A stretch of DNA of 64,000 nt from positions 1 through 64,000 of the forward strand of contig JAJQHZ010000124.1 of assembly GCA_021199475.1 (NCBI GenBank), given 5' to 3'. Within the stretch, counting starts at the first letter, position 1. Each line of letters starts with the position of its first letter. Origin of the DNA: Lachnospiraceae bacterium (GTDB taxonomy: Bacteria > Bacillota > Clostridia > Lachnospirales > Lachnospiraceae). The translations under genes were made by a program, and so were the position numbers. Of the stretch, positions 1-51,877 are shown in pieces. Under the pieces are notes generated by a model. That model was not told the DNA's origin and ran no database searches. It saw nothing but the letters and a program-made list of their open reading frames with translations.

Positions 1-28
1 GAAGAGGGCTGAATCACGCTTTTGAGAG

Positions 29-952: not shown

Positions 953-1077
953 CAGCCTATTCCTCCATTTACATCACACATCAATTCATAGAAATAGTTA
1001 TAACGTTTGTACTATTAATTATTGAAATTACAATCTGCACGATACATATAACCACAATACACTATGAATCTGTCTCT

Positions 1078-1488: not shown

Positions 1489-1569
1489 TTTTCTTTATGT
1501 CCTTTTTGACCTATGAAAATTACTTCCGCATGCATTCTACTTAATCTTTAGAAATTAATTGAATTCTGA

Positions 1570-2376: not shown

Positions 2377-2389
2377 TCTTTTCTCACCT

Positions 2390-5199: not shown

Positions 5200-5231
5200 A
5201 TGGTTTTTGCTCCCTTCATCAGCATATCGTT

Positions 5232-6164: not shown

Positions 6165-6174
6165 TAAAAACCTC

Positions 6175-10299: not shown

Positions 10300-10313
10300 T
10301 TTTTCTCCACTAT

Positions 10314-12708: not shown

Positions 12709-13441
<733 letters not shown>

Positions 13442-13457
13442 TTATACTTGTTTACAA

Positions 13458-13496
13458 ATAAATTGCTTGCATTTCATCTGTCTCATGGTAAAATAG
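13458..13496 (+). repeat. 39-base copy of an internal rfbF segment; possible promoter
   Basis: Identical to 40160-40198 inside rfbF at 36 of 39 positions and in the same orientation. Read in the rfbF frame it gives KLLAFHLSHGKI against KLLAFHQSHGKI in the gene. The same bases contain TTGCAT, 16 bases, TAAAAT, which could act as a promoter toward wzt. It is either a relic of an earlier rfbF copy or a shared recombination site. Confidence 0.65.
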
Positions 13497-13511
13497 TTTC
13501 ATAGAAGGCAT

Positions 13512-13525
13512 CAGGTGCCTGACAC
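13512..13525. repeat. 14-base repeat CAGGTGCCTGACAC, copy 1
   Basis: Contains the near-palindrome CAGG-TG-CCTG. An exact second copy lies at 13675-13688 in the same orientation. Both are between the recombinase and wzt, so they may be recombinase subsites or operators. Confidence 0.5.
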
Positions 13526-13674
13526 ATCTATGAAGGCAGATGACCTGACCCGGAGAATCCATCTATAACAGAAATGAAGACAACGCTAGAACTGGAACTG
13601 CTGGGATTGGAGGACTGAAATGATTCTTTTTAAAAAGGGAAGAGAGCCTCATTCACTTACAGACATAAAAACAG

Positions 13675-13688
13675 CAGGTGCCTGACAC
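13675..13688. repeat. 14-base repeat CAGGTGCCTGACAC, copy 2
   Basis: Exact copy of 13512-13525, 163 bases further on and 27 bases before the -35 box of the wzt promoter, a position from which a bound protein could affect transcription. Confidence 0.5.
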
Positions 13689-13714
13689 CTTCCAGAACGT
13701 GTTTTTGTTTTATA

Positions 13715-13743
13715 TTGTGTTTTTGGTCATTTGGTGCTAAAAT
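13715..13743 (+). promoter_or_regulatory. Probable sigma-A promoter of the rightward polysaccharide operon
   Basis: TTGTGT at 13715-13720, 17 bases, TAAAAT at 13738-13743. The start of transcription would be near 13750, about 60 bases before the wzt ATG. It is the best pair in this region and is followed by the run of rightward genes. Confidence 0.6.
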
Positions 13744-13810
13744 GCCGTAGTGACTGATGACATTGTGTGAATTATCAAAGTACTGAATTTTATGCACTGG
13801 GAGGCTATTT

Positions 13811-15049
13811 ATGAGCAATGCCGTTGAAATTGAGCATTTGTCTAAGGTATATAAGCTGTATGCAAAGCCGGCGGATCGCGTGAAGGAGACATTCCACGTT
13901 GGGAAGAAGGAGAACTATTATCAGGAATTTTATGCGCTGAATGACATGACGGTCGAGATACCGAAGGGTACTACCCTTGGAATTGTCGGGCGGAATGGAT
14001 CGGGCAAATCCACGCTGCTGAAGATTCTGACGGGGGTATTGCAGCCAACGTCGGGCAGTATGCGTGTGAATGGTACGGTTTCGGCTCTGCTGGAGTTGGG
14101 AGCCGGTTTTAATATGGAGTTTACCGGGCGGAAGAATATCTATCTGAACGCGACCATCCTGCGGATTCCGAAGGAGGAGATGGATAAGCGCGTGGATGAT
14201 ATCCTGAAGTTCGCAGATATCGGTGATTTTATTGATCAGCCGGTGAAGACGTATTCGAGCGGTATGTTTGTACGGCTCGCGTTTGCGGTGGCAATCAATG
14301 TAGACCCGGATATTTTGATTGTGGATGAGGCTTTGGCGGTGGGAGATACACGCTTTCAACTGAAATGTATGGATAAGTTTCTGGAGTTCCAGAAGGCAGG
14401 GAAGACGATTCTGTTTGTCAGCCATGATGTGAATTCGATTAAGCGGTTCTGTGAACGGACGATCTGGATTAATCAGGGAAAGCTGATTATGGACGGGGAT
14501 ACGGACAGTGTGACGGATCAATATACCGATTTCCTGAAAAGTGAATTATCCATTGAAGAATTTATGTCGAATGTCGCCGCGAAGCAGCAGCAACAGGAAG
14601 AGGAGCACGCGAAGCTGACGGAGGAGATGCTGGATCATGTAGACCTTGCCGAAGTGGTCGATGTGCGTATGTATGACAGTGACGGGAAGGAAATCAGCGA
14701 TATTGAGCATGGGGAGACCGTGCGTCTGGTGATCCATTACCTGGTCAGTGATACATCCGTGGAGAAGCCGGTGCTCGGGGTGGCGATACGGAGCATTGAT
14801 AATAAGTATATCTGTGGAATTAATACACTGCTGGATAAGAAAAAAATCCCCTGGGAGAAGGGAATGAATACGTTTGAGCTTGTTTATGATGGATTTAACC
14901 TGATTGGGGGAAACTATTATTTTGATGTGGCTCTGATGGACAGTACGGCGACGGTCAATCTGGACTATAAGACAAGAGCAAAGGTGTTTTTTGTGAAGAT
15001 GGAATACATCGCTGAGGGCGTGGTGGTTCTCAACCACCACTGGAAATGA
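13811..15049 (+). CDS. wzt: Polysaccharide ABC exporter ATPase with carbohydrate-binding tail
   Basis: ATP-binding subunit of a Wzm/Wzt-type polysaccharide exporter (412 aa). The ATPase domain (about 1-240) has Walker A GRNGSGKST, signature YSSGMFVRLA, Walker B DILIVDEALAVGD and the switch histidine in LFVSHD. A linker rich in Gln and Glu follows, then a beta-sandwich tail at about 270-405 of the type that in E. coli O9a Wzt recognises the capped end of the finished chain. GGGAGG lies 7 bases before the ATG. The permease gene follows after 48 bases. The tail fits well with the capping-type methyltransferase at 18604. Confidence 0.95.
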   Translation: MSNAVEIEHLSKVYKLYAKPADRVKETFHVGKKENYYQEFYALNDMTVEIPKGTTLGIVGRNGSGKSTLLKILTGVLQPTSGSMRVNGTVSALLELGAGFNMEFTGRKNIYLNATILRIPKEEMDKRVDDILKFADIGDFIDQPVKTYSSGMFVRLAFAVAINVDPDILIVDEALAVGDTRFQLKCMDKFLEFQKAGKTILFVSHDVNSIKRFCERTIWINQGKLIMDGDTDSVTDQYTDFLKSELSIEEFMSNVAAKQQQQEEEHAKLTEEMLDHVDLAEVVDVRMYDSDGKEISDIEHGETVRLVIHYLVSDTSVEKPVLGVAIRSIDNKYICGINTLLDKKKIPWEKGMNTFELVYDGFNLIGGNYYFDVALMDSTATVNLDYKTRAKVFFVKMEYIAEGVVVLNHHWK

Positions 15050-15097
15050 TAGAAATAGCGAAAAGACTTGAAATGGCTGACGGAAAGGGTTTTTGAA

Positions 15098-16466: not shown

Positions 16467-17723
16467 ATGATTAAGAAATTTAGCTGCAGCAATTTCAAAA
16501 ATGTCAGCGTACAGAATCTGGAGTTTTCCAGAATTAATGTGCTGATCGGCCCCAATAATTCCGGAAAGACGAATTTTATTCGTGCTTTATCATTTTGCGC
16601 TGATATGGTGAACCGGTCTGAGCAGTTGATTGGAAATTCGGCATTCCAGGCTTTGGTCAGCGATTATGGAGTGGGAGATGTATACAATAAATTTGCGGAG
16701 GGTTTATCTCGAGAGATTGCTTTACAATGGGAAATTGAACTTGAAAGCGGAAAAAGTGTTGAGTATGATTTGAATTTTCATACAGGAAATCAGATGCATG
16801 ATTTTTTTATTACACATGAAAGCCTGGATAACAGATATCGGTCCATGAATCGGGAAAACGAATTTAATTATTTCACATGCCATGAAAAAGCAGGAGAGGG
16901 CTATATTTCGAAGGTTTCAGATGAGGGGGAAGAAAACTGCCGGATAAAATTTGAGATACCGATGAATGATACTGTGCTGCGGCAGTTCGATCAAATCAGG
17001 CTGACTAACAGGAACATATATGAGAATGCAGATAAACAGGTCGATATGATTCATGCACTGCAGAAATATTTTGGAAACTATTATTCCTATTCCAGTGCAC
17101 AATTCGATTTAGGTAAGATTAGAGAGCCGCAGAACATACAGGCGAATGGTGTTACTTTGGAAAAGACCGGTGAAAATTTTGCTAATGTATTTAATTTTTA
17201 TAAGAGCAAAGATATTTATATGGTACGTACTTTCCTGGGGAAAATCCGGGAATTAATGCCGACAATTGATTCTGCTGACACGGTTACAGAATTTAACAAG
17301 CTTGCGTTTAAAATTGGTTATGAAGGAAAACAATTCAGTCTGAATGATTTGTCTGATGGAACCATCAAAGCGCTTTTGCTGACTATGCTGATTTTCGTTC
17401 CGATTAATGAAGGCTTTTCCATGCTGGCAATTGATGAGCCGGAAATGAATATCCATCCGGCCTGGCAGCAGATTATCGGCAGGTGGCTGCAATATTCTGA
17501 TAATTTTGAGCAGTGTTTTATCAGCACGCATTCGCCGGACTTTCTGGACACATTTACGGAAGGGTTTAAACGTGGCGAGGTCAGCGTGATCGTGTTTGAT
17601 CCGAGAGAGAAAAAGCAAATTAAGAAGCTGCAATATTCGGACATGGCGCAGGATCTGGAAGATTGGGAGTTGGGTGACTTGTACAGAGTAAATGATCCAT
17701 CGATAGGAGGCTGGCCATGGTAA
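16467..17723 (+). CDS. AAA ATPase of OLD/ABC-type, defence-like
   Basis: ATPase of about 419 aa from the group found in OLD, PARIS and AbiL-type defence pairs. Walker A is GPNNSGKTN near residue 30, the signature-like LNDLSDGTIKALL lies near 290, Walker B is MLAIDEPEMNIHP and the switch histidine is in ISTHSPDFLDTF. Long helical insertions lie between the halves, as in SMC/RecF-like ATPases. I start at ATG 16467, where the fold begins. It overlaps the next gene by 7 bases, and together they look like an ATPase plus nuclease module. It has no obvious role in sugar export although it sits inside that operon, 16 bases after wzm. Confidence 0.85.
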   Translation: MIKKFSCSNFKNVSVQNLEFSRINVLIGPNNSGKTNFIRALSFCADMVNRSEQLIGNSAFQALVSDYGVGDVYNKFAEGLSREIALQWEIELESGKSVEYDLNFHTGNQMHDFFITHESLDNRYRSMNRENEFNYFTCHEKAGEGYISKVSDEGEENCRIKFEIPMNDTVLRQFDQIRLTNRNIYENADKQVDMIHALQKYFGNYYSYSSAQFDLGKIREPQNIQANGVTLEKTGENFANVFNFYKSKDIYMVRTFLGKIRELMPTIDSADTVTEFNKLAFKIGYEGKQFSLNDLSDGTIKALLLTMLIFVPINEGFSMLAIDEPEMNIHPAWQQIIGRWLQYSDNFEQCFISTHSPDFLDTFTEGFKRGEVSVIVFDPREKKQIKKLQYSDMAQDLEDWELGDLYRVNDPSIGGWPW

Positions 17724-18541
17724 AACCGAGGATTGCTTGTTATATAACCGGAGGATGGACCGAGTGCGGGTATATGACACATTTTTTAAATGAGATTAAC
17801 GATAAGTATGACTATAGGCAGCGTTTTCCGCAAAAAAGTATTGGAAAGAAAGGGAAGAAAAGAAAATTTGTTCATATAGAGGGAACCACTGGAGAAGATT
17901 TAATTAAGGCAGTATATTCAGATTTGAGAGAACACAAGAAAGAATTGGTGGATTTTGAAGCTATATTAATAGAAGATGATGTGGATGATAATTATTTTTT
18001 GGTTGATGGTTATGGAAGAGATTATGAGAAAATTGAGAAGAGAAAAACAGAAATAGAAACGGAGATTCAATCTATTTTGGGGAAAGACAGTATGCCAATT
18101 TTCTTTCTCTATGCCATTCCGGAGATAGAAGCTTGGTTTTTAGCGGACTGGGATCATACGTTTGGTGAAGAATATTTCCATCTTTTGAAAAAAATGAATT
18201 CTTATTTTAGCACGACATTTCGAAAATTCATAATGAAGCAGGTGTTAACGAATACATATCCGCTTTCCGAAATTGAAAATTATGGTATGTTCGATGGTGC
18301 CTACAGGAAATTAAGCGATGAACTGATTCAGGCGTTTCAGGAGTACTCTTATCTTGAAACAGAAGATAAAAACAACGAGGAATATGATAAAATTATAAAT
18401 GGGATGATAAGCAACAATAGGCTTTGTTATTCGAAGAAAGAACAGGGAAGGAATATGCTTGCACGGTTGAGACCAGATAAAGTTGCAAGCGTTTGCGGAC
18501 ATTATTTTGCAAAGACATATGCGGAACTGAATAACTTTTGA
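17717..18541 (+). CDS. TOPRIM/DUF4276-like partner of the ATPase
   Basis: Protein of 274 aa, clearly AT-richer than its neighbours. The N-terminal GGWTECGYMTHFL corresponds to the glutamate-bearing start of TOPRIM-like domains, IEDDVDDNYF is an acidic metal-site candidate, and PEIEAWFLAD is a motif I associate with the DUF4276/RloB group, which is often coupled to an AAA ATPase. AGGAGG lies 6 bases before the ATG and the frame overlaps the ATPase gene by 7 bases, so translation is coupled. I infer a nuclease or effector activated by the ATPase, as in PARIS or AbiL. The exact family needs a profile search. Confidence 0.7.
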   Translation: MVKPRIACYITGGWTECGYMTHFLNEINDKYDYRQRFPQKSIGKKGKKRKFVHIEGTTGEDLIKAVYSDLREHKKELVDFEAILIEDDVDDNYFLVDGYGRDYEKIEKRKTEIETEIQSILGKDSMPIFFLYAIPEIEAWFLADWDHTFGEEYFHLLKKMNSYFSTTFRKFIMKQVLTNTYPLSEIENYGMFDGAYRKLSDELIQAFQEYSYLETEDKNNEEYDKIINGMISNNRLCYSKKEQGRNMLARLRPDKVASVCGHYFAKTYAELNNF

Positions 18542-39750: not shown

Positions 39751-40530
39751 ATGAAAACGGTGATACTAGCCGGCGGTTTTGGCACCAGATTTTCAGAAGA
39801 ATCCGGGTACAAGCCCAAGCCGATGATTGAGATTGGCGGGATGCCGATTCTCTGGCATATTATGAAGGAATATTCCTATTATGGATTTAACGAGTTCGTA
39901 ATCTGTGCAGGATACAAACAGCATGTCATTAAGGAGTGGTTTGCGGACTACTTTTTACATACGTCGGATATTACGTTTGATTTTACACAGGGCAATAAAA
40001 TGATTGTTCATAACCAACACTCAGAGCCGTGGAAGGTGACGGTGGTGGATACGGGGCTTACTACGATGACAGGCGGCCGGATCAAACGTGTGCAGCCTTA
40101 TATTGGAAATGAGCCGTTTATGATGACTTACGGAGACGGTGTGTGTGATGTGGATATCCATAAACTGCTTGCATTTCATCAGTCTCACGGTAAAATAGCG
40201 ACGTTGACATCCGTGTTTCTGGAGCAGCAAAAAGGAATCTTAGACATTGGCGGCGACAATGAGGTGCATTCGTTTCGGGAAAAGAGCGTGTTGGACGGAT
40301 CTCCGATCAATGCCGGGTACATGGTGCTGAATCCTGAGATTTTTGACTACATCGAGGGAGATGATACGGTCTTCGAGAAGCAGCCTCTGCAGCGGCTGGC
40401 GGAAAGCGGCGAGCTGATGTCGTATTCTCACACGGGCTACTGGCAGTGCATGGATACCAGGAGAGAGAAGGACATTCTGGAGAATCTCTGGAGCAGCGGG
40501 CAGGCACCCTGGAAGAAGTGGATGGACTGA
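39751..40530 (+). CDS. rfbF: Glucose-1-phosphate cytidylyltransferase
   Basis: First enzyme of CDP-deoxyhexose synthesis: CTP plus glucose 1-phosphate to CDP-glucose (259 aa, exact family size). The signature is LAGGFGTRFSEES, followed by KPKPMIEIGGMPILWH; TYGDGVCDVD carries the metal aspartates. GGGAGG lies shortly before the ATG. rfbH follows after 143 bases and rfbG lies about 9.6 kb further on. A 39-base internal segment (40160-40198) recurs beside the recombinase at 13458. Confidence 0.95.
   Translation: MKTVILAGGFGTRFSEESGYKPKPMIEIGGMPILWHIMKEYSYYGFNEFVICAGYKQHVIKEWFADYFLHTSDITFDFTQGNKMIVHNQHSEPWKVTVVDTGLTTMTGGRIKRVQPYIGNEPFMMTYGDGVCDVDIHKLLAFHQSHGKIATLTSVFLEQQKGILDIGGDNEVHSFREKSVLDGSPINAGYMVLNPEIFDYIEGDDTVFEKQPLQRLAESGELMSYSHTGYWQCMDTRREKDILENLWSSGQAPWKKWMD
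40160..40198 (+). repeat. Second copy of the 39-base repeat (inside rfbF)
   Basis: Matches 13458-13496 at 36 of 39 positions in the same orientation, 26.7 kb apart. Here it codes for part of the KLLAFHQSHGKI stretch of RfbF, so this copy is held by protein function and is probably the original. Confidence 0.65.
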
Positions 40531-40635: not shown

Positions 40636-40673
40636 CATGTGAAAGTGAAAAGCAGTTGGAAAGGACTACAGGA

Positions 40674-42011
40674 ATGTTTGAGAACCAGACGGAGCAGCAG
40701 GCGAGAGAACAGATTTTAAATATGGTGGCGGAGTACTGCGATACCTTCCACAATCAGGCGAAGCCGTTTGAGGAGGGAGACCGGATTCCGTATGCGTCCA
40801 GAGTGTATGATCATAATGAGATGGTGAATCTGGTGGACAGCTCGCTGGAGTTCTGGCTGACGTCCGGCCGTTATACGGTGCAGTTTGAGAAGCAGCTGGC
40901 GGAATATCTGAATGTGAAGTATTGCTCGCTGGTGAATTCGGGTTCATCGGCGAATCTCTGTGCGTTTATGGCGCTGACTTCCCCGCTGCTGGGGGAGAGA
41001 AGAGTGCGGCGCGGCGATGAGATTATCACGGTGGCTGCGGGGTTCCCGACGACGGTGGCTCCGGTGATCCAGTATGGTGCGGTGCCGGTGTTTGTGGATG
41101 TGACGATTCCGCAGTACAATATCGATGTGACGAAGCTGGAGGAGGCATATTCGGAGAAAACGAAGGCCGTGATGATTGCACATACGCTGGGCAATCCGTT
41201 TGATCTGGGGGCGGTGAAGGCGTTCTGCGACCGGCACAATCTGTGGCTGGTGGAGGATAATTGCGATGCGCTGGGCTCCCGTTACACGATCGATGGAGAG
41301 ACGAAGGCGACTGGTACGATTGGCGATATCGGTACCTCGAGCTTTTATCCGCCGCACCATATGACGATGGGCGAGGGTGGCGCGGTCTATACGGATAACG
41401 CGCTGCTGAATAAGATTATCCGCTCCTTCCGTGACTGGGGCCGGGACTGCGTGTGCCCGTCCGGCCGGGACAATCTGTGTGGCCATCGCTTTGACCGGCA
41501 GTATGGTGAGCTGCCGCTCGGGTATGATCATAAGTATGTTTATTCTCATTTTGGATACAATTTAAAGGCGACGGATATGCAGGCGGCCATTGGCTGCGCG
41601 CAGCTTGAGAAGTTCCCGTCCTTTGTAGAGAGAAGAAAAGCGAATTTCGCCCGTCTGAAGGAGAAGCTTGCCGGTACGGAGGAGAAGCTGATCTTGCCGG
41701 TGCCCTGTGAGAATTCAGATCCGAGCTGGTTCGGTTTCCTGATTACCTGTAAAGAGGGCGTTGACCGGAATGCAGTGGTGCGTTATGTGGAGAGCAAGGG
41801 CGTGCAGACGCGGATGTTGTTTGCCGGGAATCTGACGAAGCATCCCTGCTTTGATGAGATGCGCGCGACAGGGGAGGGATACCGGATTGTCGGCTCGCTG
41901 GAGAACACGGACCGCATTATGCGCGATACATTCTGGGTGGGCGTGTACCCGGGCATGACGGACGAAAAGATCGACTATATGGCGAAAACCATTCGTGCTG
42001 CTATTGAGTAA
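40674..42011 (+). CDS. rfbH: CDP-4-keto-6-deoxy-D-glucose 3-dehydratase (E1)
   Basis: PMP- and iron-sulphur-dependent enzyme that removes the C3 hydroxyl of CDP-4-keto-6-deoxyglucose on the way to 3,6-dideoxyhexoses (445 aa). The motif SFYPPHHMTMGEGG shows the His that replaces the usual PLP lysine in this subfamily, and CVCPSGRDNLCGH holds cysteines of the [2Fe-2S] cluster. I use ATG 40674, with AAAGGA upstream, rather than TTG 40656. The partner reductase (E3, AscD/RfbI) is not seen in this window. The product would be CDP-3,6-dideoxy-4-ketoglucose, the branching point for abequose, tyvelose or yersiniose. Confidence 0.95.
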   Translation: MFENQTEQQAREQILNMVAEYCDTFHNQAKPFEEGDRIPYASRVYDHNEMVNLVDSSLEFWLTSGRYTVQFEKQLAEYLNVKYCSLVNSGSSANLCAFMALTSPLLGERRVRRGDEIITVAAGFPTTVAPVIQYGAVPVFVDVTIPQYNIDVTKLEEAYSEKTKAVMIAHTLGNPFDLGAVKAFCDRHNLWLVEDNCDALGSRYTIDGETKATGTIGDIGTSSFYPPHHMTMGEGGAVYTDNALLNKIIRSFRDWGRDCVCPSGRDNLCGHRFDRQYGELPLGYDHKYVYSHFGYNLKATDMQAAIGCAQLEKFPSFVERRKANFARLKEKLAGTEEKLILPVPCENSDPSWFGFLITCKEGVDRNAVVRYVESKGVQTRMLFAGNLTKHPCFDEMRATGEGYRIVGSLENTDRIMRDTFWVGVYPGMTDEKIDYMAKTIRAAIE

Positions 42012-42185: not shown

Positions 42186-43814
42186 ATGGGCACAATTAAA
42201 TTGTTGGATTGTACCCTCAGGGACGGCGGATATGTGAATGACTGGAAGTTTGGGCAGAAGAACCTGATTTCTGTGTTTGAGCGTCTGACGGATGCGGGGG
42301 TCGATATTATTGAGATTGGATTCCTGGATGAGCGGCGGCCATTTGATATTGACCGGAGCATTATGCCGGATACGGCCTGCGTGAATCAGATTTTTGGATC
42401 ACTGGATAAAAAACAGGCGATGGTCGTCGGCATGATTGATTATGGTACATGTGGGATTAAGAATCTGCAGCCCTGCGAGGATTGCTTCCTGGACGGGATC
42501 CGGGTGATTTTTAAAAAGCATCTGATGGTGCCGGCGATGGAGTTCTGCCGTCAGGTGAAGGCGCTGGGATATCGGGTGTTTGCCCAGTTGGTGTCGATTA
42601 CGAGCTATAACGATGAAGAGCTGTCCGCACTGGCGGATCTGGTGAATGATGTGAAGCCGTATGCGGTGTCGATGGTGGATACGTACGGGCTTCTTCACCC
42701 GGAGGATCTGCTGCATTATTATGAGATTCTGGATCGTCAGGTGTGCCCGGAGGTGCAGATTGGTTTTCATGCGCACAACAATTTCCAGCTTGCCTATGCG
42801 AATGCGCTGGCATTTCTCGGAAAGGAGGCGCGGCATGATATTGTCGTAGACGGTACGCTTTACGGCATGGGCAAAAGCGCCGGGAATGCGCCGCTCGAGC
42901 TTCTGGGGATGCGGCTGAATGACAGGTTCGGCGGGCACTATCGGATTGATCCGATGCTGGAAGCCATTAAAGAGAGTGTGATGGATTTTTATGAGACCTC
43001 TCCGTGGGGCTATAAGACGTTCTTTTACCTGTGCGGACGGAATAATTGCCATCCGAATTATGTGACGTATCTGGAGGCGAAGAAGAATCTTTCCGTCTCG
43101 AAGATTGACGCGCTGCTGGCGCAGATTGAGCCGGAGGAGAAGAAGCTGCTGTATGATAAGCTCGTCGCGGAAAAGCTTTATGACGACTATCTGTCCGGCG
43201 AGGGGAATGACGCGGATGCGAAAGAGGCTTTCAGAGAGGAATTGAGCGGACGGACCGTTTTGACTGTCGGTCCGGGAAAAAATATTCTTTTGCAGCAAAA
43301 AGCGGTGAAACAGTTTTGCGAAAAAAACAGGCCTTATGTGATATCCATCAATTACATTCCTGAGTTTATGGATGTGGATTGCGTGTTTGTGACAAACGGA
43401 AAGCGTTATCACGATATGGTTTTATCTCTGAAACAGGAGAAAAATCAGAATGTAAAGCTTCTGGCGACCAGCAATGTGGAGTGCCGCAACGGTCAGTTTG
43501 ACTTCGTAATGAACCGGGCGCCGCTGTTGGAAAACGAAGAGAGGATTACGGATAATTCCTTCCTGATGCTGTTGAAATTCTTCCGGATGCTGAAAATCGA
43601 TGAAGTGTATTGTGCCGGGTTTGACGGCTATTCGGATAAAGAGGACAATTACTGCAACCCCGCGATGGAATATTCATTTGTTAAAAGGGAAGCATTGCAC
43701 CTGAATTATCATATGAAAAAAAGGATTACGGAACTCCGGGAGAATATGAAGATTCATTTTATCACGTATTCGGCGTATGACGTGGTGGAGGATATCAATG
43801 GAGCAGCCATATGA
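42186..43814 (+). CDS. HMGL/DmpG-like aldolase with extra C-terminal domain
   Basis: Residues 1-290 are a DRE-TIM (HMG-CoA lyase type) barrel: LLDCTLRDGGYVND carries the catalytic Arg-Asp, GFHAHNNFQLA the metal histidines. This family makes or breaks C-C bonds with pyruvate or acetyl groups; 4-hydroxy-2-oxovalerate aldolase is the nearest known activity. Residues 345-542 form a second domain (VLTVGPGKNILLQQ, then VDCVFVTNGKRYHDM) that I cannot name with confidence; it recalls DUF115/MptE-like folds. GGAGG lies 5 bases before ATG 42186. Such two-domain aldolases occur in polysaccharide loci. It opens a six-gene cassette placed between rfbH and rfbG. Confidence 0.82.
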   Translation: MGTIKLLDCTLRDGGYVNDWKFGQKNLISVFERLTDAGVDIIEIGFLDERRPFDIDRSIMPDTACVNQIFGSLDKKQAMVVGMIDYGTCGIKNLQPCEDCFLDGIRVIFKKHLMVPAMEFCRQVKALGYRVFAQLVSITSYNDEELSALADLVNDVKPYAVSMVDTYGLLHPEDLLHYYEILDRQVCPEVQIGFHAHNNFQLAYANALAFLGKEARHDIVVDGTLYGMGKSAGNAPLELLGMRLNDRFGGHYRIDPMLEAIKESVMDFYETSPWGYKTFFYLCGRNNCHPNYVTYLEAKKNLSVSKIDALLAQIEPEEKKLLYDKLVAEKLYDDYLSGEGNDADAKEAFREELSGRTVLTVGPGKNILLQQKAVKQFCEKNRPYVISINYIPEFMDVDCVFVTNGKRYHDMVLSLKQEKNQNVKLLATSNVECRNGQFDFVMNRAPLLENEERITDNSFLMLLKFFRMLKIDEVYCAGFDGYSDKEDNYCNPAMEYSFVKREALHLNYHMKKRITELRENMKIHFITYSAYDVVEDINGAAI

Positions 43815-43961
43815 TGATAAAAAATAAGACACGGAGCAATTCGCAGTATTATCATAATGCTTCATAATTTGGTGATTCTGTCACTGACCCGTCAAGAAAA
43901 GTCCGCAAGCGCACGATTCTTCGGACAGGTCACATTATAATAAAGAAAGGACGGCCATACT

Positions 43962-44879
43962 ATGAAGCGCGCAGTAATTACCGGTCCAACCGGTGCGGTG
44001 GGCACTGCTCTGGCGCAATGTCTGATTGACCGGGAAATTGAAGTGCTGGCTGTGTGCCGGCGCGGCTCAAAGCGAATCGGGAATCTGCCGAAGTCGCCTT
44101 ATTTGCGTGTGGTGGAGTGCAGTCTGGACGAGCTGAACCGTCTGCCGTCACTTGCAGAGGGGACGTATGACGCGTTTTATCATTTCGGATGGGACGGTAC
44201 GTTTGGCAACGCCAGAAATAATATGCCGGGTCAGCTGAAGAACATTCAATATACGCTTGATGCGGTGGAGGCGGCCGCGCAGCTTGGCTGCACCGTGTTT
44301 GTCGGGGCAGGCTCGCAGGCGGAGTATGGCCGGGTGGAGGGTGACCTTCGGGAAGATACGCCGGCGTTCCCGGAAAACGGCTATGGAATTGCGAAGCTGT
44401 GTGCCGGGCAGATGAGCCGGATTCTGTGTGAGCAGAAAGGAATCCGCCATGTCTGGACGCGAATTCTGAGCGTGTATGGTCCCAATGACGGGGAAAAGAC
44501 CATGATCATGGCGACGATTCAGAAGCTTCTTGCAGGAGAAAAACCGGCGCTGACAAAAGGGGAACAGCAGTGGGATTATCTGTATTCGAAGGACGCCGCG
44601 GCTGCCTTGTATTTATTGGGCAAGAAGGGGAAGAACGGAAGAATCTATTGCCTGGGCAGTGGAAAGGCACGTCCGCTTCTGGATTATATAGAATGGATGC
44701 GGGATGAGATTGATACGGCACTTCCGCTGGGCATAGGAGAGATTCCTTATGCGCCGAAGCAGGTGATGTATTTGTGCGCGGATATTTCCGCGCTGCGTGA
44801 GGACACCGGGTTTGAGCCGCAGTATACGTTTCAGGAAGGAATCCGAGAGACGATTGAATGGGTGAGGGAAGAACCATGA
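43962..44879 (+). CDS. NAD(P)-dependent sugar epimerase/reductase (extended SDR)
   Basis: Extended SDR of 305 aa. The nucleotide site is ITGPTGAVGTALAQ, the Ser strand is VGAGSQAEYG and the catalytic pair is intact in GYGIAKLCAG (YxxxK). It should epimerise or reduce a nucleotide sugar, perhaps the 4-keto group of the CDP-deoxysugar made by RfbG/RfbH. AAAGGAC lies 10 bases before the ATG; TATAAT at 43936-43941 is a possible internal promoter -10 without a good -35. Its stop overlaps the start of the thiamine-diphosphate enzyme gene (ATGA), so the two are coupled. Confidence 0.88.
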   Translation: MKRAVITGPTGAVGTALAQCLIDREIEVLAVCRRGSKRIGNLPKSPYLRVVECSLDELNRLPSLAEGTYDAFYHFGWDGTFGNARNNMPGQLKNIQYTLDAVEAAAQLGCTVFVGAGSQAEYGRVEGDLREDTPAFPENGYGIAKLCAGQMSRILCEQKGIRHVWTRILSVYGPNDGEKTMIMATIQKLLAGEKPALTKGEQQWDYLYSKDAAAALYLLGKKGKNGRIYCLGSGKARPLLDYIEWMRDEIDTALPLGIGEIPYAPKQVMYLCADISALREDTGFEPQYTFQEGIRETIEWVREEP

Positions 44880-46681
44880 AGAAAAAAATAGCAAATTACA
44901 TTGCGGATTTTCTGGTGGAACAGGGGATCCGGCATAATTTTACGGTGACGGGCGGCGGCGCAATGCATCTGAATGACGCGCTCGGCCATAAGGAAGGGCT
45001 GACCAGCATTTTTAACCATCATGAGCAGGCCTGCGCGATTGCCGCAGAAGCGTATTCGCGTCTGACCGGGAATCTTGCTTGTCTGTGTGTGACGAGCGGT
45101 CCGGGCGGGACGAACGCTCTGACGGGAGTTCTGGGAAGCTGGCTGGATTCGATTCCGATGCTGATTCTCTCGGGCCAGGTGAAGCGGGAGATGACGATCT
45201 GGAGTTGTCCGGATCTGAATCTGCGCCAGCTGGGGGATCAGGAATTTAACATTGCGGATACCGTGCAGCACATGACGAAATATGCTGTGATGGTAACGGA
45301 CCCGTATATGGTATCGTATCATCTGGAAAAAGCACTCTACCTTTGTAAAAAAGGAAAGGGAGGTCCGGTCTGGCTGGACATCCCGCTGGATATCCAGGGT
45401 GCCCGGGTCGACGTGGATAAGATGGTACATTTTGTCCCGGAGCAGGAATACGGTGAGAGAAAACCAGAGTTTACATCCGGCGACGCCGCTCGGCTGATGG
45501 AGAAAATCAAGGCGGCAAAGGCTCCGCTTCTGCTCGCGGGAAGCAGCATCCGATACAGCAAATCAGAGGAAACATTTCTGCAGCTGGTAGAGAAACTGAA
45601 CATCCCGGTGGTGACTGCCTGGGCGGCCAATGATACGCTCTCAGGCGATCATCCGTGTTTTATGGGGGTGCCAGGTACGCTCGGGACACGGGCGGCGAAT
45701 TTTGCGGTGCAGCAGTGTGACCTGCTGCTTACACTGGGCTGCCGTATGAACGTTCGCATGGTAGGGTATAACAAAGGTGATTTTGCGTCAAACGCATACA
45801 AGGTTATGGTGGATATCTGCGAGGCAGAGCTTCACAAGCCGACCTATGAACCGGACTGGGCCATCTGCGCGGATGTGAAGGATGTGCTGGAAGGCCTGGT
45901 TTCCTGTGATTATGACAGGCCGAAGGAGCATGACCGCTGGCTGCGCTGGTGTCAGGATGTGAGAGAAAAATATCCGGTGGTTCCGGCATCGTATCACCAT
46001 GCAGATGGGGCAATCAACCCATATGTATTTACGGAAAAGATGTTTGAGCATCTCGACGCGGAGGACACCATTGTTTCCAGTAATGGCAGCTCCTGCGTTA
46101 TGCCGATTCAGGTCAGCGGGATCAAACAGGGGCAGCGGTATTTCTGCAATTCCGGCTGTGCGGCAATGGGCTATGGCCTGCCTGCCGCACTCGGAGCAGC
46201 GGTGGCGCTTGGAGGGAAGCGGGTGATCTGCCTGGAAGGCGACGGCAGCATCATGATGAATCTGCAGGAGCTGCCGACGGTCCGTTATTACGGGCTGAAC
46301 ATGAAGATTTTCATTTATAATAACAAAGGCTATCATTCGATTCGCCAGACACAGAGAAATAATTTCGGGGAGCCGCTTGTGGGTGTGAACAATGAGAGCG
46401 GCGTCGCAATTCCGGATTTTGAGAAGGTGGCGGCTGCTTTTGATATTCCGTATTTTGCAATTCATACGGAGAGTGAGGCGGACGGAATACTGCAGCAAGT
46501 GCTGGAGACGGAAGGCGCAGTCATCTGTGAGGCATTTGTGGACCCCGAACAGAATTTTGCACCGAAATCATCATCAAAGGTTCTTCCGGATGGGAAAATC
46601 ATTTCTCCGTCGATTGACGAGATGGCGCCGTTCCTGCCGCAGGAGGAGTATCGTGCAGTGAAGGAGAGCTGGCAAAAATAG
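44876..46681 (+). CDS. Thiamine-diphosphate enzyme of the acetolactate synthase type, YerE-like candidate
   Basis: Protein of 601 aa with the three-domain acetolactate synthase plan. The cofactor glutamate is in NHHEQACAIAAEAY, and the diphosphate/metal motif is LEGDGSIMMN with IYNNKGYHS. Enzymes of this group decarboxylate pyruvate and add the two-carbon unit to a carbonyl. In CDP-yersiniose synthesis, YerE does this to CDP-3,6-dideoxy-4-ketoglucose, exactly the product expected from RfbF/G/H here. Ordinary acetolactate synthase or an IolD-like hydrolase are alternatives. ATG 44876 has GAGGGAAG upstream and overlaps the SDR stop; the longer frame from 44858 is less likely. Confidence 0.85.
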   Translation: MKKKIANYIADFLVEQGIRHNFTVTGGGAMHLNDALGHKEGLTSIFNHHEQACAIAAEAYSRLTGNLACLCVTSGPGGTNALTGVLGSWLDSIPMLILSGQVKREMTIWSCPDLNLRQLGDQEFNIADTVQHMTKYAVMVTDPYMVSYHLEKALYLCKKGKGGPVWLDIPLDIQGARVDVDKMVHFVPEQEYGERKPEFTSGDAARLMEKIKAAKAPLLLAGSSIRYSKSEETFLQLVEKLNIPVVTAWAANDTLSGDHPCFMGVPGTLGTRAANFAVQQCDLLLTLGCRMNVRMVGYNKGDFASNAYKVMVDICEAELHKPTYEPDWAICADVKDVLEGLVSCDYDRPKEHDRWLRWCQDVREKYPVVPASYHHADGAINPYVFTEKMFEHLDAEDTIVSSNGSSCVMPIQVSGIKQGQRYFCNSGCAAMGYGLPAALGAAVALGGKRVICLEGDGSIMMNLQELPTVRYYGLNMKIFIYNNKGYHSIRQTQRNNFGEPLVGVNNESGVAIPDFEKVAAAFDIPYFAIHTESEADGILQQVLETEGAVICEAFVDPEQNFAPKSSSKVLPDGKIISPSIDEMAPFLPQEEYRAVKESWQK

Positions 46682-46814
46682 AGGCTTTAAGAGAAACGCT
46701 TTATGATAATTTTTGCGGAGAAACGATGTGCTGTGTCACCCAGATGTGATTCGCGTTGAGCGGAAGCGGGAATACGCAGAATCAGTTGGATGAGAGGAAG
46801 GAGAAGCCTGGAAA

Positions 46815-47333
46815 GTGGGCAGATGGGAATCAATAAAGCTGCTGGTGATCGATGTGGACGGCACGATGACCGACGGCGGCATTTATTATGATGAAAATGG
46901 CAATGAGACAAAAAAATTCTGTACGAAGGACGCGGCGGGATTTTTTACGGCTCATCAGGTCGGGATTGAGATTATGGTGCTGACCGGGAGTGAGTGCCGG
47001 GCTACGACCCGGCGGATGACGGAAATGAGCGTCGAATATTTGTGCCAGAATGTGAAGGACAAGTACCGGTTTCTGAAGCAATTTATGGACGAGCACCGGC
47101 TTTCAAAAGAAAATATCGGCTACATCGGTGATGACCTGAATGATCTGCATCCGATGTCTCTGGCGGGGTTTGTCGGATGTCCATGTGATTCCTGTGAGGA
47201 AATTGTCCGGATTGCGGATTATGTGTCAGACATCAAAGGCGGATACGGGGCAGTGCGCGACGTGATTGCTTTTCTTTTGAAAGAAAGGGGAGAGTGGGAG
47301 CGGGCATACCATACCGTTTACGGTATTGAATAA
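46815..47333 (+). CDS. KdsC-like HAD phosphatase
   Basis: Small HAD phosphatase (172 aa, the size of KdsC and of NeuA-linked phosphatases). The nucleophile motif is LVIDVDGTMTDGGIYY, motif two VLTGSECR, and the metal motif GYIGDDLNDLHP. This group removes phosphate from 8- or 9-carbon sugar acids such as KDO 8-phosphate. No cytidylyltransferase for such acids is seen, so the substrate may be another sugar phosphate made by the cassette. GTG 46815 is the likely start, with AAGGAG 11 bases before; no in-frame ATG exists upstream of the motif. Confidence 0.88.
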   Translation: MGRWESIKLLVIDVDGTMTDGGIYYDENGNETKKFCTKDAAGFFTAHQVGIEIMVLTGSECRATTRRMTEMSVEYLCQNVKDKYRFLKQFMDEHRLSKENIGYIGDDLNDLHPMSLAGFVGCPCDSCEEIVRIADYVSDIKGGYGAVRDVIAFLLKERGEWERAYHTVYGIE

Positions 47334-47354
47334 AACTAAGTGAGAGGAAATGAA

Positions 47355-48023
47355 ATGAGCAGAAAAGCACTGGTAACGGGAGGAAGCAGGGGAATCGGAA
47401 AAGCAATTGCCACGCAGCTGCGTCAGGAAGGGTATGAGGTGTTCACTCCGACAAGGCAGGAGCTGAACCTGCTGTCAGCGGAATCCATTGATCAGTATGT
47501 GCGGGAGAATCGGGGGATCACCTTTGATGTGATTGTCAACGATGCCGGCATTAATGACATTAACGATATCGATCAGATTACTGATGACGAGATTGAACGC
47601 GCCATGAAGACGAATCTGATTGCGCCGATGAAACTTCTGCGCGGATTTGTGCCCGCAATGAAAGAGAATCATTATGGAAGAATCGTAAACATTGGCTCGA
47701 TCTGGAGTGTCGTTTCCAAGCGCGGCCGGGTGGTTTACAGTGCGACGAAGCATGGAATTCATGGGATTACGAAGACGCTTGCGGTGGAGCTTGCGGAGTA
47801 TAACATTCTGGTCAATACAGTTTGCCCGGGCTTTACTTTGACGGAGCTGACGAGCAAAAATAATACCCCGGAGCAGATTGAGGAAATTTCGAAAGAGATT
47901 CCGATGGGCCGTATGGCACAGCCGGAGGAAATCGCAAACGCAGTCTGCTATCTGGTCAGCGAAAGCAATACGTATCTGACGGGACAACTGATTGCGGTAG
48001 ATGGAGGATATACGTCAAAATGA
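47355..48023 (+). CDS. Short-chain dehydrogenase/reductase (classical SDR)
   Basis: Classical SDR (222 aa) similar in motifs to FabG: TGGSRGIGKAIA cofactor loop, NDAGIND, catalytic Ser in VNIGSIWSV and YSATKHGIHG (YxxxK). It probably reduces a keto group with NADPH, for example the one left after a YerE-type two-carbon addition (the job of YerF in Yersinia). ATG 47355 has GAGAGGAA 7 bases before, better than GTG 47340. It overlaps the AroB-like gene by 4 bases (ATGA). Confidence 0.88.
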   Translation: MSRKALVTGGSRGIGKAIATQLRQEGYEVFTPTRQELNLLSAESIDQYVRENRGITFDVIVNDAGINDINDIDQITDDEIERAMKTNLIAPMKLLRGFVPAMKENHYGRIVNIGSIWSVVSKRGRVVYSATKHGIHGITKTLAVELAEYNILVNTVCPGFTLTELTSKNNTPEQIEEISKEIPMGRMAQPEEIANAVCYLVSESNTYLTGQLIAVDGGYTSK

Positions 48024-49093
48024 TCATTCATTCGAAATTCAAGGATTATGAAGTGAAAATTGAGCAGAATCTGGACTTCCTGGAGGTACTTTCACAGGAG
48101 GAAAACACGGAATTTGTGATTGATCAGAAGGTTTATGACCTGTATCAGGAGCATTTTCAGGCGATTCCTGCCAATCGGTTGATTCTGATTGAGGCGACCG
48201 AGCAGAATAAGGTCATCCAGACGGCGCTGGATATCTGTGAAAAGATGACGGAAATCCCGGCAAAGCGGAATGCGCAGCTGGTCTCTGTCGGCGGAGGGAT
48301 TATTCAGGACATTACGGGGTTCGTGGCAAATATTCTTTACCGCGGGATTCGCTGGATATTTGTGCCGACGACGCTGCTGGCTTCGTGTGACAGCTGCATC
48401 GGCGGAAAGACTTCATTGAATTATAAAAAGTATAAAAACCTTCTGGGAACCTTCTATCCCCCGGATCAACTGCATATTTGCTCTGCTTTTTTCAAAACAC
48501 TCACGGAGCGGGATTACAAAAGCGGTTTGTGCGAGGTCGTGAAATTCAATATCATGGCGGGCGAAGACCGCCTGGCACAGATTACAGAGGATATGGACGG
48601 ACTTCTCGTCAGGGAATCCGGCTGCGTGAACCGCTATGTGGAAAGCAGTCTTTTGTTCAAAAAGTCCTTTATCGAGGTGGACGAGTTCGACCGGGGCGAG
48701 CGGATTAAGCTGAATTTTGCGCACACCTTTGGTCATGCGATTGAGGTCGTGACCAATTATGAGATTCCGCATGGGACGGCTGTGGCCATTGGTATGATCA
48801 TGGCAGACAGCATTTCGCTGAAACGCCAGCTCCTTTCCGCAGAGCTCGTAACCGGCAGCGAAAACGTTTTACTGAAGGTGATTGATATCAATCCGGAGCT
48901 TCTGGATGTGCCGCAGGAGCAGGTGCTCGATGCCATGCGCAAGGACAAGAAGCAGACCAGTCAGTCTCTGACAGCAGTATTGCTCACGGAAAATGGACTG
49001 GAACTGATTCATGATATGGAAACCGAAGAGGTTGCGTATGCATTTGACTATTTCAGAAGCTTGTATGCGGATTACTGCAGTGTAAGCAGATGA
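48020..49093 (+). CDS. AroB-related sugar phosphate cyclase
   Basis: Protein of 357 aa from the dehydroquinate synthase superfamily. Recognisable motifs are VSVGGGIIQDITGF, VPTTLLASCDSCIGGKTSLN, GLCEVVKFNIM, NFAHTFGHAIE and PHGTAVAIGM, with zinc histidines in place. Several residues differ from true AroB (for example DITGF for DLAGF, LCEVVKFN for LAEVIKYG), as in the AroB-related phospholyases of O-antigen loci. Such enzymes turn a phosphorylated ketose into a cyclitol or an altered sugar. It is coupled to the upstream SDR. A housekeeping shikimate role is unlikely in this context. Confidence 0.85.
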   Translation: MIIHSKFKDYEVKIEQNLDFLEVLSQEENTEFVIDQKVYDLYQEHFQAIPANRLILIEATEQNKVIQTALDICEKMTEIPAKRNAQLVSVGGGIIQDITGFVANILYRGIRWIFVPTTLLASCDSCIGGKTSLNYKKYKNLLGTFYPPDQLHICSAFFKTLTERDYKSGLCEVVKFNIMAGEDRLAQITEDMDGLLVRESGCVNRYVESSLLFKKSFIEVDEFDRGERIKLNFAHTFGHAIEVVTNYEIPHGTAVAIGMIMADSISLKRQLLSAELVTGSENVLLKVIDINPELLDVPQEQVLDAMRKDKKQTSQSLTAVLLTENGLELIHDMETEEVAYAFDYFRSLYADYCSVSR

Positions 49094-49204
49094 ATTTGAA
49101 GGATTATTTACGTTCCGGTTTATCCGGGCCAGGCGCTTAGGAACGATTCCCTGCGCAAAATGGAAAAATTTTGGCTTCGGATTATCCGTGTTAAGGTGAA
49201 ACAA

Positions 49205-50149
49205 ATGAAAAAAATCAGTGTGATGATTCCCTGCTATAATGAGGAAGAAAATGTAAAACCTATGAGTGAGGCGGTTGTGCATATATTGGAGTCAGAGTTA
49301 GCGCAATATGACTATGAGCTTTTGTTTATTGATAACTGCTCGACTGACCGAACCAGAGAATACCTGCGTGAAATCTGTGCAGGGAATCCGAAAATTAAAG
49401 AAATCTTTAACGCAAAGAATTTCGGACAGTTCAATTCTCCTTACTATGGAATGCTTCAGACGACCGGCGACTGTACGATTACGATGTGTTGTGATTTCCA
49501 GGATCCGGTGGAACTCATTCCGGTCTTTGTAAAGGAATGGGAGAATGGCTACAAGATCGTTTCCGGTATCAAAACCAGCAGCAAAGAAAACAGAATCATG
49601 CGTTCTCTTCGTACCTGCTATTACAAGCTGATCAAAAAGATGTCCGATGTCGAGCAGATTGAGCATTTTACGGGCTTTGGATTGTATGACAAGGGTTTTA
49701 TTGAAGTACTTCGTAAGCTGGACGACCCGACTCCGTTTTTGCGTGGAATTGTGGCGGAGCTTGGCTATAAGAGAAAGAACATCCCCTATGAGCAGCAAAA
49801 GCGTGCGGCCGGGAAGACACACAACAATTGGTATACTTTGTATGATGCCGCGATGCTGAGCTTTACGTCTTATACGAAGGTTGGACTGCGGATTGCGACC
49901 ATCAGCGGGTTTGTCATGTCCATACTGGCGATGTTGGTTGCATTCGTTTATTTAATTATGAAGCTGGTTTACTGGGATCGGTTTGACGCTGGCACAGCAC
50001 CGATTCTGATCGGCGTCTTCCTGATGGGGGCAGTGCAGCTTTTCTTTATCGGACTGATTGGGGAATATGTGCTGAGTATTAATAAGAGAGTGATGCATCG
50101 GCCGCTTGTGGTGGAGGAAGAGCGGATCAATTTTCAGGATAAGGAATGA
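49205..50149 (+). CDS. GtrB/DPM1-like membrane glycosyltransferase (GT2)
   Basis: Polyprenyl-phosphate glycosyltransferase of 314 aa. SVMIPCYNEEENV, FIDNCSTDRT and the metal-site variant CCDFQDPVELIP stand at the family positions; GFGLYDKGF marks the acceptor loop. Helices at about 228-252 and 262-288 end the protein. I start at ATG 49205 (AAGGTG 7 bases before) rather than 49160. Its stop overlaps the rfbG start by 4 bases. With the GtrA gene at 51365 and the GT-C-like gene at 51984 it could form a complete side-sugar module, perhaps using the CDP-derived deoxysugar. Confidence 0.9.
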   Translation: MKKISVMIPCYNEEENVKPMSEAVVHILESELAQYDYELLFIDNCSTDRTREYLREICAGNPKIKEIFNAKNFGQFNSPYYGMLQTTGDCTITMCCDFQDPVELIPVFVKEWENGYKIVSGIKTSSKENRIMRSLRTCYYKLIKKMSDVEQIEHFTGFGLYDKGFIEVLRKLDDPTPFLRGIVAELGYKRKNIPYEQQKRAAGKTHNNWYTLYDAAMLSFTSYTKVGLRIATISGFVMSILAMLVAFVYLIMKLVYWDRFDAGTAPILIGVFLMGAVQLFFIGLIGEYVLSINKRVMHRPLVVEEERINFQDKE

Positions 50150-51219
50150 AAATAATGAGAATGGATATGACTTTTTTTAAAAACAAACGCATTTTGATTA
50201 CCGGCCACACCGGCTTTAAGGGCTCCTGGATGTGTCGGCTGCTGGCAAATGCGGGCGCTTCTGTGACGGGATATGCGCTGGAGCCGCCGACGGATCCGAG
50301 CCTGTTTGCGCTCTGCCATCTGGATGAGGCGGTGCGCTCGATTGTGGGTGATGTCCGGGATCTGGAGCATCTGAAGCGCGTGTTTGAGGAGACGCAGCCG
50401 GAGATTGTGATTCATATGGCGGCGCAGCCGCTGGTGCGTGAGTCTTACCAGAATCCGGTCTATACGTATGATGTCAATGTGATGGGCACGGTCAATGTGC
50501 TGGAGTGCGTCCGGCTGACGAAAAGTGTGCGCTCGTTCCTGAATGTGACGACGGACAAGGTATATCGGAACCGGGAATGGGAGTGGGGGTACCGTGAGAA
50601 TGAGGAATTGAACGGATACGATCCGTATTCGAATTCGAAATCCTGCTCAGAACTGGTGACCGGCAGCTATAAGAATTCGTTTTTTGGCGATTCAGATACG
50701 GCGATTTCAACGGCCAGGGCCGGCAATGTGATCGGAGGCGGGGATTTTGCCGCAGACCGGATCATACCGGACTGCATCCGCGCCGCACAGGCGGGAAACG
50801 ATATCATTGTGCGCACTCCGTTTTCTACCAGACCATATCAGCATGTGCTGGAGCCGATAGCCGCTTATCTGATGATTGTGAAGGCACAGTATGAGGATCC
50901 GAAATTCGCCGGTAATTACAACGTGGGGCCTGACGAGACGGATTGCTGGACGACGGGAAATCTGGTGACATTGTTCTGTAAAAAGTGGAATGGGCGAACT
51001 GACGCGAAGGTGAAATGGATCGACCGCTATGACGGCGGTCCGCACGAAGCGAGCTTCCTGAAGCTGGACTGCTCAAAAATCAAGCGGATTTTTGGCTGGA
51101 CACCGCGGTGGAATGTGGAGACTGCCATGGAGAAGATTGTCGAGTGGTCGAAGGCGTATTTTGAAGGCGGAGATATTGTGGCAGTGATGGACCGGCAGAT
51201 CGAAGAGTTTCTTGGATAA
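50146..51219 (+). CDS. rfbG: CDP-glucose 4,6-dehydratase
   Basis: Extended SDR (357 aa, family size) converting CDP-glucose to CDP-4-keto-6-deoxyglucose. ITGHTGFKGSWM is the typical RfbG cofactor loop, VTTDKVYRN holds the catalytic Thr and Asp, and YSNSKSCSEL the YxxxK pair. ARAGNVIGGGDFAADRIIPD is the expected family stretch. It acts between RfbF (39751) and RfbH (40674) but lies about 8 kb downstream of them, after the six-gene cassette. Alternative ATGs a few codons inside are possible. Confidence 0.95.
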   Translation: MKIMRMDMTFFKNKRILITGHTGFKGSWMCRLLANAGASVTGYALEPPTDPSLFALCHLDEAVRSIVGDVRDLEHLKRVFEETQPEIVIHMAAQPLVRESYQNPVYTYDVNVMGTVNVLECVRLTKSVRSFLNVTTDKVYRNREWEWGYRENEELNGYDPYSNSKSCSELVTGSYKNSFFGDSDTAISTARAGNVIGGGDFAADRIIPDCIRAAQAGNDIIVRTPFSTRPYQHVLEPIAAYLMIVKAQYEDPKFAGNYNVGPDETDCWTTGNLVTLFCKKWNGRTDAKVKWIDRYDGGPHEASFLKLDCSKIKRIFGWTPRWNVETAMEKIVEWSKAYFEGGDIVAVMDRQIEEFLG

Positions 51220-51364: not shown

Positions 51365-51877
51365 ATGGAGAAATTCCTGAGAGCAGGCTGGAATTTTCTT
51401 GAAAAGATGATTTATTTTTTCGGGGTCAAGGTATTTCGGATCAGGCTACTAGAGAATAACTGGGACAGTATTATTCAATTTGTGAAGTTCGGAGTCGTCG
51501 GATTGAGCAATACGGTTGTTTCTTATGTGATTTATCTGATATCGCTTCTGCTATTGCAGAACTATGCTTTGATACCGAATTTCGATTATCTGGTGGCGCA
51601 GTTTATTGGGTTTCTGATCAGCGTTTTGTGGTCCTTTTACTGGAACCGAAAATATGTTTTTAAGGCGGATAATGATCAGGTGCCCTGGCCGCAGGCACTT
51701 TTGAAAACCTATATCTCATATGGCTTTACGGGCATTTTCCTGAACAGCATCTTGTCCATTCTTTGGGTGCAGATGCTGGGGGTCTCCAAGCTGATTGCCC
51801 CGATCTTTAACCTGATCATCAGTGTACCGCTGAATTTTATTCTGAATAAATTCTGGGCGTTCCGGAAAGGAAAATAA
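51365..51877 (+). CDS. GtrA family membrane protein
   Basis: GtrA-type four-helix flippase candidate (170 aa). After a 35-residue N-terminal part comes FVKFGVVGLSNTVVSYVIYL (helix one), then a second helix ending FYWNRKYVF, the family signature before a short loop, and two further helices ending LNKFWAFRK. It would flip a lipid-linked sugar made by a GtrB-type enzyme. The nearest GtrB-type gene is at 49205 and a GT-C-like gene follows after 106 bases. GGGG lies 8 bases before the ATG. Confidence 0.9.
   Translation: MEKFLRAGWNFLEKMIYFFGVKVFRIRLLENNWDSIIQFVKFGVVGLSNTVVSYVIYLISLLLLQNYALIPNFDYLVAQFIGFLISVLWSFYWNRKYVFKADNDQVPWPQALLKTYISYGFTGIFLNSILSILWVQMLGVSKLIAPIFNLIISVPLNFILNKFWAFRKGK

Follow-up and report, generated by a model that had tools for sequence, protein, structure and literature searches.

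The window analysed here is a stretch of 64,000 nucleotides (positions 1-64,000) of contig JAJQHZ010000124.1, from a Lachnospiraceae bacterium, and the subject of this report is a cassette of six genes at 42186-49093. An earlier interpretation made from the letters alone (the sequence-only reading) had proposed such a cassette, inserted between rfbH and rfbG, and both proposals hold. All six reading frames are open and on the + strand. They are preceded by the gene for RfbH, a CDP-4-keto-6-deoxyglucose 3-dehydrase (40656-42011, +; NF011936, 731 bits against a cut-off of 423), and followed by that for RfbG, a CDP-glucose 4,6-dehydratase (50146-51219, +; TIGR02622, 437 bits, cut-off 278), although a glycosyltransferase gene also separates the cassette from rfbG. 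RfbF, a glucose-1-phosphate cytidylyltransferase, is encoded at 39751-40530 (+; TIGR02623, 373 bits, cut-off 300).

The first gene of the cassette (42186-43814) encodes a pyruvate (4-hydroxy-2-oxo acid) aldolase (residues 1-340; PF00682, 89 bits) fused to a second domain. Next come a NAD-dependent epimerase-type reductase of the short-chain dehydrogenase/reductase (SDR) class, SDR1 (43962-44879; PF01370, 120 bits), and a YerE-like thiamine-diphosphate (ThDP) enzyme (44876-46681; PF02776, PF00205 and PF02775), their genes overlapping by 4 nucleotides. The remaining products are a KdsC-like phosphatase of the HAD type (46815-47333; TIGR01670, 126 bits, cut-off 107), a FabG-type reductase, SDR2 (47340-48023, with an in-frame ATG at 47355; PF13561, 163 bits), and AroB2, an AroB-related putative sugar phosphate phospholyase (48020-49093; TIGR04425, 431.4 bits, cut-off 400). 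The junctions measure, in gene order, 147, -4, 133, 6 and -4 nucleotides. The description of the genes as mostly coupled thus suits three of the five junctions (-4, +6 and -4) but not the two wide ones.

For comparison, genome contigs were scanned with a profile from a three-row alignment of ThDP enzymes (the window and loci L034 and L035). At least 573 relatives were found, and the 80 best were retained. The counted set comprises 85 loci in which a ThDP frame was called: 77 of those 80 (L087, L106 and L111 had no such frame called and were dropped), the window, and L034, L035, L138, L141, L142, L144 and L145. These last seven were found via AroB2 and are hence biased, so counts are also given without them. 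Five further loci (L128, L129, L139, L140 and L143) have AroB2 but no ThDP frame and stand outside the 85. A locus is called complete when the fetched sequence extended at least 5 kb to either side of the ThDP gene, as was the case for 52 of the 85. The loci share ancestry, such that the Fisher p-values below are only a guide and overstate. The exact set of six genes, which the sequence-only reading had suggested seeking in other genomes, occurs in none of the 11 other loci with both ThDP enzyme and AroB2. The window is alone among the 85 in having a KdsC-type gene near the ThDP gene (0/84 elsewhere).

The ThDP enzyme and the aldolase

The ThDP enzyme has three TPP_enzyme domains in Pfam; E50, which we take to be the catalytic glutamate, and G455-D456-G457 are invariant in the three aligned rows. 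It falls short of the acetolactate synthase equivalog cut-off (333 against 538 bits), and better-scoring acetolactate synthase genes are found elsewhere in the genome, on contigs C75 and C141 (740.5 bits each; the equal scores perhaps reflect a duplicated stretch or an assembly copy). A separate, better-scoring dehydroquinate synthase gene is likewise present on contig C79. The AroB-like and ThDP enzymes of the cassette are thus extra paralogues.

Among solved structures, the best match of the ThDP enzyme is JanthE (8rph; E 1e-119, 403 bits), and the next matches in the PDB are acetolactate synthases, from 1e-66. JanthE is a YerE-like enzyme that, in passages of PMC12188165, takes 4-hydroxy-2-oxovalerate with benzaldehyde; it has a CDG motif where the window enzyme has GDG. 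According to passages of PMC12247030, YerE itself uses pyruvate as donor and CDP-4-keto-3,6-dideoxyglucose as acceptor. The same passages describe ErwE, from the erwiniose pathway of Pectobacterium atrosepticum, as a YerE-like enzyme that joins a 4-hydroxy-2-oxo acid donor to the same acceptor. With JanthE as the closest solved relative of its ThDP enzyme and rfbF, rfbH and rfbG around it, the cassette very probably encodes synthesis of a branched CDP-deoxysugar, as the sequence-only reading had supposed. The products of YerE-like enzymes are chiral tertiary alcohols, and PMC12247030 states that the sugar formed is not known for the majority of those predicted. A scan of 246 Actinomycetota genomes gave YerE-like relatives at E<=1e-130 in four, one of them the genome on which the search was centred; in plasmid records, all matches to the ThDP enzyme and the aldolase were below 60% identity, and three of the plasmid regions carry no annotation.

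The window aldolase has the fold and the metal and catalytic residues of the DmpG type (4-hydroxy-2-oxovalerate aldolase), but misses the TIGR03217 equivalog cut-off (89 against 286 bits). Two unrelated pyruvate aldolases, HMGL-type and HpcH-type, occur in the related loci; exactly one of them is present in 80 of the 85 and both in none, and among the complete loci exactly one is present in 52/52. The HpcH-type protein replaces the HMGL-type aldolase beside the ThDP enzyme in L084, L092, L098, L099, L104, L110, L138, L141, L142, L144 and L145. Four of the five loci lacking an aldolase end within 4.2 kb on one side. The fifth, L107 from Treponema (1-15055), looks like a true exception: rfbF/G/H, SDR1, GT2 and the ThDP enzyme are all present, yet no aldolase was recognised in the 10 kb that precede the ThDP gene or the 3.2 kb that follow it. 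L107 weakens the generalisation and possibly represents a two-carbon, yersiniose-type version. Because the window itself has an aldolase, our estimate for it is unchanged, and we consider it likely that its branch is built from the aldolase product. This agrees with the earlier expectation of a branch longer than the two carbons of yersiniose, since an aldolase fits the ErwE/caryophyllose route (passages of PMC12247030). For that reading, however, the additions to the yersiniose pathway were the AroB-like enzyme and the phosphatase rather than the aldolase. The aldolase pattern offers a genomic means to predict a long branch.

The C-terminal domain of the window aldolase (residues ~348-535) has a CstII/Maf/DUF115-like (sialyltransferase) fold. 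It has no Pfam match, and Foldseek alone gave no match at E<=0.001. Among the loci fetched, this domain is confined to the HMGL-type aldolase. Such a domain is an unusual fusion partner for an aldolase.

AroB2, SDR2 and the phosphatases

AroB2 belongs to the fold family of dehydroquinate synthase AroB. It misses the aroB equivalog cut-off (272.8 against 305 bits) and has an NCBIfam family of its own, TIGR04425, which carries a putative function only and a name that includes “cyclizing”. For the 2-epi-5-epi-valiolone and 2-deoxy-scyllo-inosose synthases, the PDB entries 2d2x and 4p53 gave weaker scores only. At 14 positions that are catalytic in dehydroquinate synthase (zinc ligands and two residues for the substrate carboxylate included), 16 AroB2 proteins, three spirochaete relatives and 10 dehydroquinate synthases are identical, save one Lys replaced by His in L139, L140 and L143. 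This conservation suggests a 3-deoxy-2-ulosonate phosphate as substrate. AroB2 differs from the synthases in a DSCIG[GS]K-type signature (DSCMGSK in L129), as against DSS[IV]GGK in 9 of the 10 compared, and in its partner. SDR2 directly precedes AroB2 in 13/13 loci with both labels, and the genes overlap by 4 nucleotides in nine loci, by 10 in two, by 23 in one and by 26 in another. L143 keeps the arrangement (a 23-nucleotide overlap by coordinates) with an SDR assigned to another profile. L034 and L035 have AroB2 without SDR2, beside an FGGY-type kinase, an aldolase and, by eye, radical SAM-like and VOC-like frames; they are possibly a kinase-fed variant.

TIGR04425 is sparsely distributed. 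Matches above its cut-off occur in a single genome among the 299 from the window’s family and a single one among the 398 from its phylum (its own genome both times), in 7 of 296 genomes from the phylum to which the Alistipes genome belongs (9 at E<=1e-92), in 0 of 149 in a spirochaete sample (2 at E<=1e-92), in 1 of 82 in the Desulfosporosinus class (itself), and in 4 of 12 genomes chosen from the loci. On plasmids, 115 records matched AroB2, all below 60% identity and at best 33% among the matches listed; the one plasmid region examined (Rhizobium, H17) has a housekeeping aroB adjoining shikimate kinase. A literature search on the combined features of the cassette gave no match. Neither TIGR04425, “sugar phosphate phospholyase” nor “AroB-related” was found among the matches listed, which does not establish absence from print.

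The KdsC-like protein of the window is the only match to TIGR01670 above its cut-off in the genome. Its best solved matches are of the KDN-9-P/KDO-8-P phosphatase type, and the cut-off of NF058599 (KDN-9-phosphate phosphatase) is missed, 135 against 180 bits. More broadly, a HAD phosphatase stands near the ThDP gene in 55 of the 73 loci without AroB2 but in only two of the 12 with it (p 1.7e-4), namely the window (KdsC) and L034 (HAD_2). In the 77 loci found without regard to AroB2, the corresponding counts are 55/73 and 0/4 (p 0.0054). Further, none of 50 genomes examined, of the 55 with HAD-type loci, showed AroB2, and the same search does find it in other genome sets. The phosphatase and AroB2 alternate beside an aldolase and a decarboxylating ligase, a pattern suggesting that the aldol product loses its phosphate to either of them.

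On the tree of ThDP enzymes, the AroB2 label requires four changes, and L069 falls among HAD-type loci (support 93). The sister of the window enzyme is that of Sporofaciens L036 (support 100). The L036 cluster has neither a HAD phosphatase nor AroB2; an SDR2-AroB2 pair, 67 and 68% identical to the window’s, lies far off in the same genome, in L128. That pair (9587-11325, Sporofaciens musculi) sits amid genes unlike a glycan cluster.

Proposed pathway and its rivals

We propose that the cassette probably makes a 4-C-branched CDP-3,6-dideoxyhexose with a long polyhydroxylated branch, a sugar of the erwiniose/caryophyllose class destined for the surface polysaccharide whose genes surround the cassette. 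RfbF, RfbG and RfbH, by their established family functions, would yield CDP-4-keto-3,6-dideoxyglucose, and the aldolase would join pyruvate to an aldose phosphate to give a 4-hydroxy-2-oxo acid phosphate. In what is the weakest step, either KdsC would then hydrolyse off the phosphate or AroB2 would eliminate it to leave a methyl ketone for SDR2 to reduce, the 2-keto acid end surviving. By analogy with ErwE, the ThDP enzyme would decarboxylate the acid and add the acyl group to the C4 ketone of the CDP-sugar. SDR1 would reduce the new ketone in the branch, and GT2 and GtrA suggest transfer via undecaprenyl phosphate.

AroB chemistry requires a pyranose with an exocyclic CH2OP, i.e., heptulosonate 7-phosphate (pyruvate plus tetrose 4-phosphate). 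Were this the aldol product, the AroB2/SDR2 route would give 3,7-dideoxyheptulosonate and hence a 1,3,4,5-tetrahydroxyhexyl branch of caryophyllose constitution (C12H24O8, 296.15); via KdsC, the branch would be pentahydroxyhexyl (C12H24O9, 312.14). Caryophyllose, found in the lipooligosaccharide of Mycobacterium marinum (MMAR_2332), is 3,6-dideoxy-4-C-(D-altro-1,3,4,5-tetrahydroxyhexyl)-D-xylo-hexopyranose in the relevant passage of PMC5706390, and the agreement with the predicted product is one of constitution only. In the passages on M. marinum caryophyllose in PMC4403928, PMC4703794, PMC5706390 and PMC12507525, which hold no full gene list for the cluster and so say little on the point, the word “dehydroquinate” is absent. 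Caryose was set aside as a product: its ring carbons all bear oxygen, unlike the outcome of a phosphate elimination.

That AroB2 and SDR2 carry out a non-cyclising deoxygenation is a tentative suggestion that we hold to be less likely than not. The fuller version is, to us, slightly more speculative: AroB2 would eliminate phosphate from 3-deoxy-heptulosonate 7-phosphate without forming a ring, SDR2 would reduce the methyl ketone, and 3,7-dideoxyheptulosonate would feed the ThDP enzyme. The pair would then be interchangeable with the phosphatase, would set a CH3 rather than a CH2OH end, and might be the origin of branches of the caryophyllose type. L143, which has no ThDP gene, favours this chemistry indirectly. 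Its neighbours include a PF02348 (CTP_transf_3) cytidylyltransferase, an SIS protein (GmhA-like, though under that cut-off), a Gfo/Idh/MocA protein, a 2-hydroxyacid dehydrogenase, PF03328 (HpcH), PF04199 and PF04074, and cytidylyl transfer would again need a 2-keto acid end. The neighbours in L139 and L140 are similar, as judged by eye from the frames.

Several observations weigh against these proposals. To our knowledge, every characterised relative of AroB closes a ring. The exclusion between phosphatase and AroB2 is not strict, as the window has KdsC with AroB2 and L034 has HAD with AroB2; where AroB2 acts as proposed, the KdsC of the window is not needed, and it may make a CH2OH-ended branch or act on another phosphate. 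Confined to complete loci, the counts become two of six AroB2 loci with HAD against 35 of 46 others (p 0.05). Among 18 genomes with neither gene near the ThDP gene, 17 show no AroB2 (E<=1e-92), seven of the 18 clusters being truncated; in those 17, therefore, the phosphate is removed in another way or its removal is not needed. L107 implies that some relatives may manage without a recognised aldolase, and the presence of the SDR2-AroB2 pair in L139, L140 and L143 without a ThDP gene means that it is not bound to a branched-sugar pathway.

This last observation, with the lone pair in Sporofaciens L128, is what one would expect if SDR2 and AroB2 belonged to a different small-molecule pathway, for an ulosonate or as a second dehydroquinate/quinate route, and merely adjoined the branched-sugar genes. 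We think this unlikely, in that 12 loci have AroB2 no further than 6 kb from the ThDP gene, in varied arrangements and spread over distinct branches of the ThDP tree, and AroB2 is associated with absence of the phosphatase. The cyclitol of the sequence-only reading, formed if AroB2 cyclised like dehydroquinate synthase, SDR2 reduced the ring ketone and the carbocycle joined the sugar, would suit the family name and the retention in AroB2 of ThDP loci of all the zinc-ligand and substrate positions of the synthase. Bradyrhizose, whose genes are unknown or only suggested in the passages of PMC4743980 that concern it, is a precedent for a bicyclic sugar in a bacterial glycan. Yet ring closure at C2 would consume the very 2-keto acid required by the ThDP enzyme, and by a cytidylyltransferase like that of L143, and none of the cassette genes was recognisable as one that would activate a free cyclitol. 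We found no positive evidence for a cyclitol and regard it as doubtful.

A pathway of the plain yersiniose type, in which the ThDP enzyme adds two carbons from pyruvate and the aldolase is incidental, has in its favour that YerE takes pyruvate with the same CDP-sugar (in passages of PMC12247030), that SDR1 could be the branch reductase, and that L107 seems to lack an aldolase. The window resembles that pathway in its CDP-sugar acceptor and ThDP enzyme, but adds the aldolase, KdsC and AroB2/SDR2; given that aldolase, and the one-aldolase rule in all complete loci, we reject this explanation for the window as quite improbable. Participation of the genes in shikimate or branched amino acid synthesis, the outcome by which the sequence-only reading would have failed, is suggested by family names only (AroB, acetolactate synthase). 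It is extremely improbable and was rejected in view of the housekeeping dehydroquinate synthase and acetolactate synthase genes elsewhere, the missed equivalog cut-offs and the sugar-gene neighbours.

How new the predicted sugar is must also be restated, as it had been called not yet described. Synthesis of a long-branched CDP-deoxysugar by such a route is already known in kind. The erwiniose pathway shares with our proposal its acceptor, a YerE-like enzyme and the type of donor; AroB2 and SDR2 are not mentioned in the parts of PMC12247030 that describe it, the comparison being by description rather than by sequence. The SDR2-AroB2 module is the new part and the one worth testing. Should AroB2 prove non-cyclising, a family at the centre of aromatic synthesis would have a second kind of chemistry; should it cyclise, there may be a new surface sugar that contains a carbocycle. 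TIGR04425, so far only a putative name, gains a testable substrate, and the pattern of phosphatase or AroB2 offers a means to predict the end of the branch.

Surroundings of the cassette

GT2, the glycosyltransferase between the cassette and rfbG (49160-50149, +), is of the undecaprenyl-phosphate type (PgfS/ArnC-like) and scores 180 bits with NF047588, under the cut-off of 500. In 32 of the 52 complete loci, a match above 300 bits occurs no more than 6 kb away from the ThDP gene. The GtrA-like membrane protein is encoded at 51365-51877 (+; PF04138, 78 bits). A scan for promoters and terminators gave nothing usable. The surrounding polysaccharide locus has an ABC exporter of the Wzt/Wzm type. 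Between the polysaccharide export and glycan genes, at 16467-18541, lie an AAA_21 ATPase (PF13304) and then a 274-residue frame, which may be a defence-type pair. Finally, a frame that by eye is recombinase-like (12722-13429, - strand) coincides with a change in sign of the GC skew.

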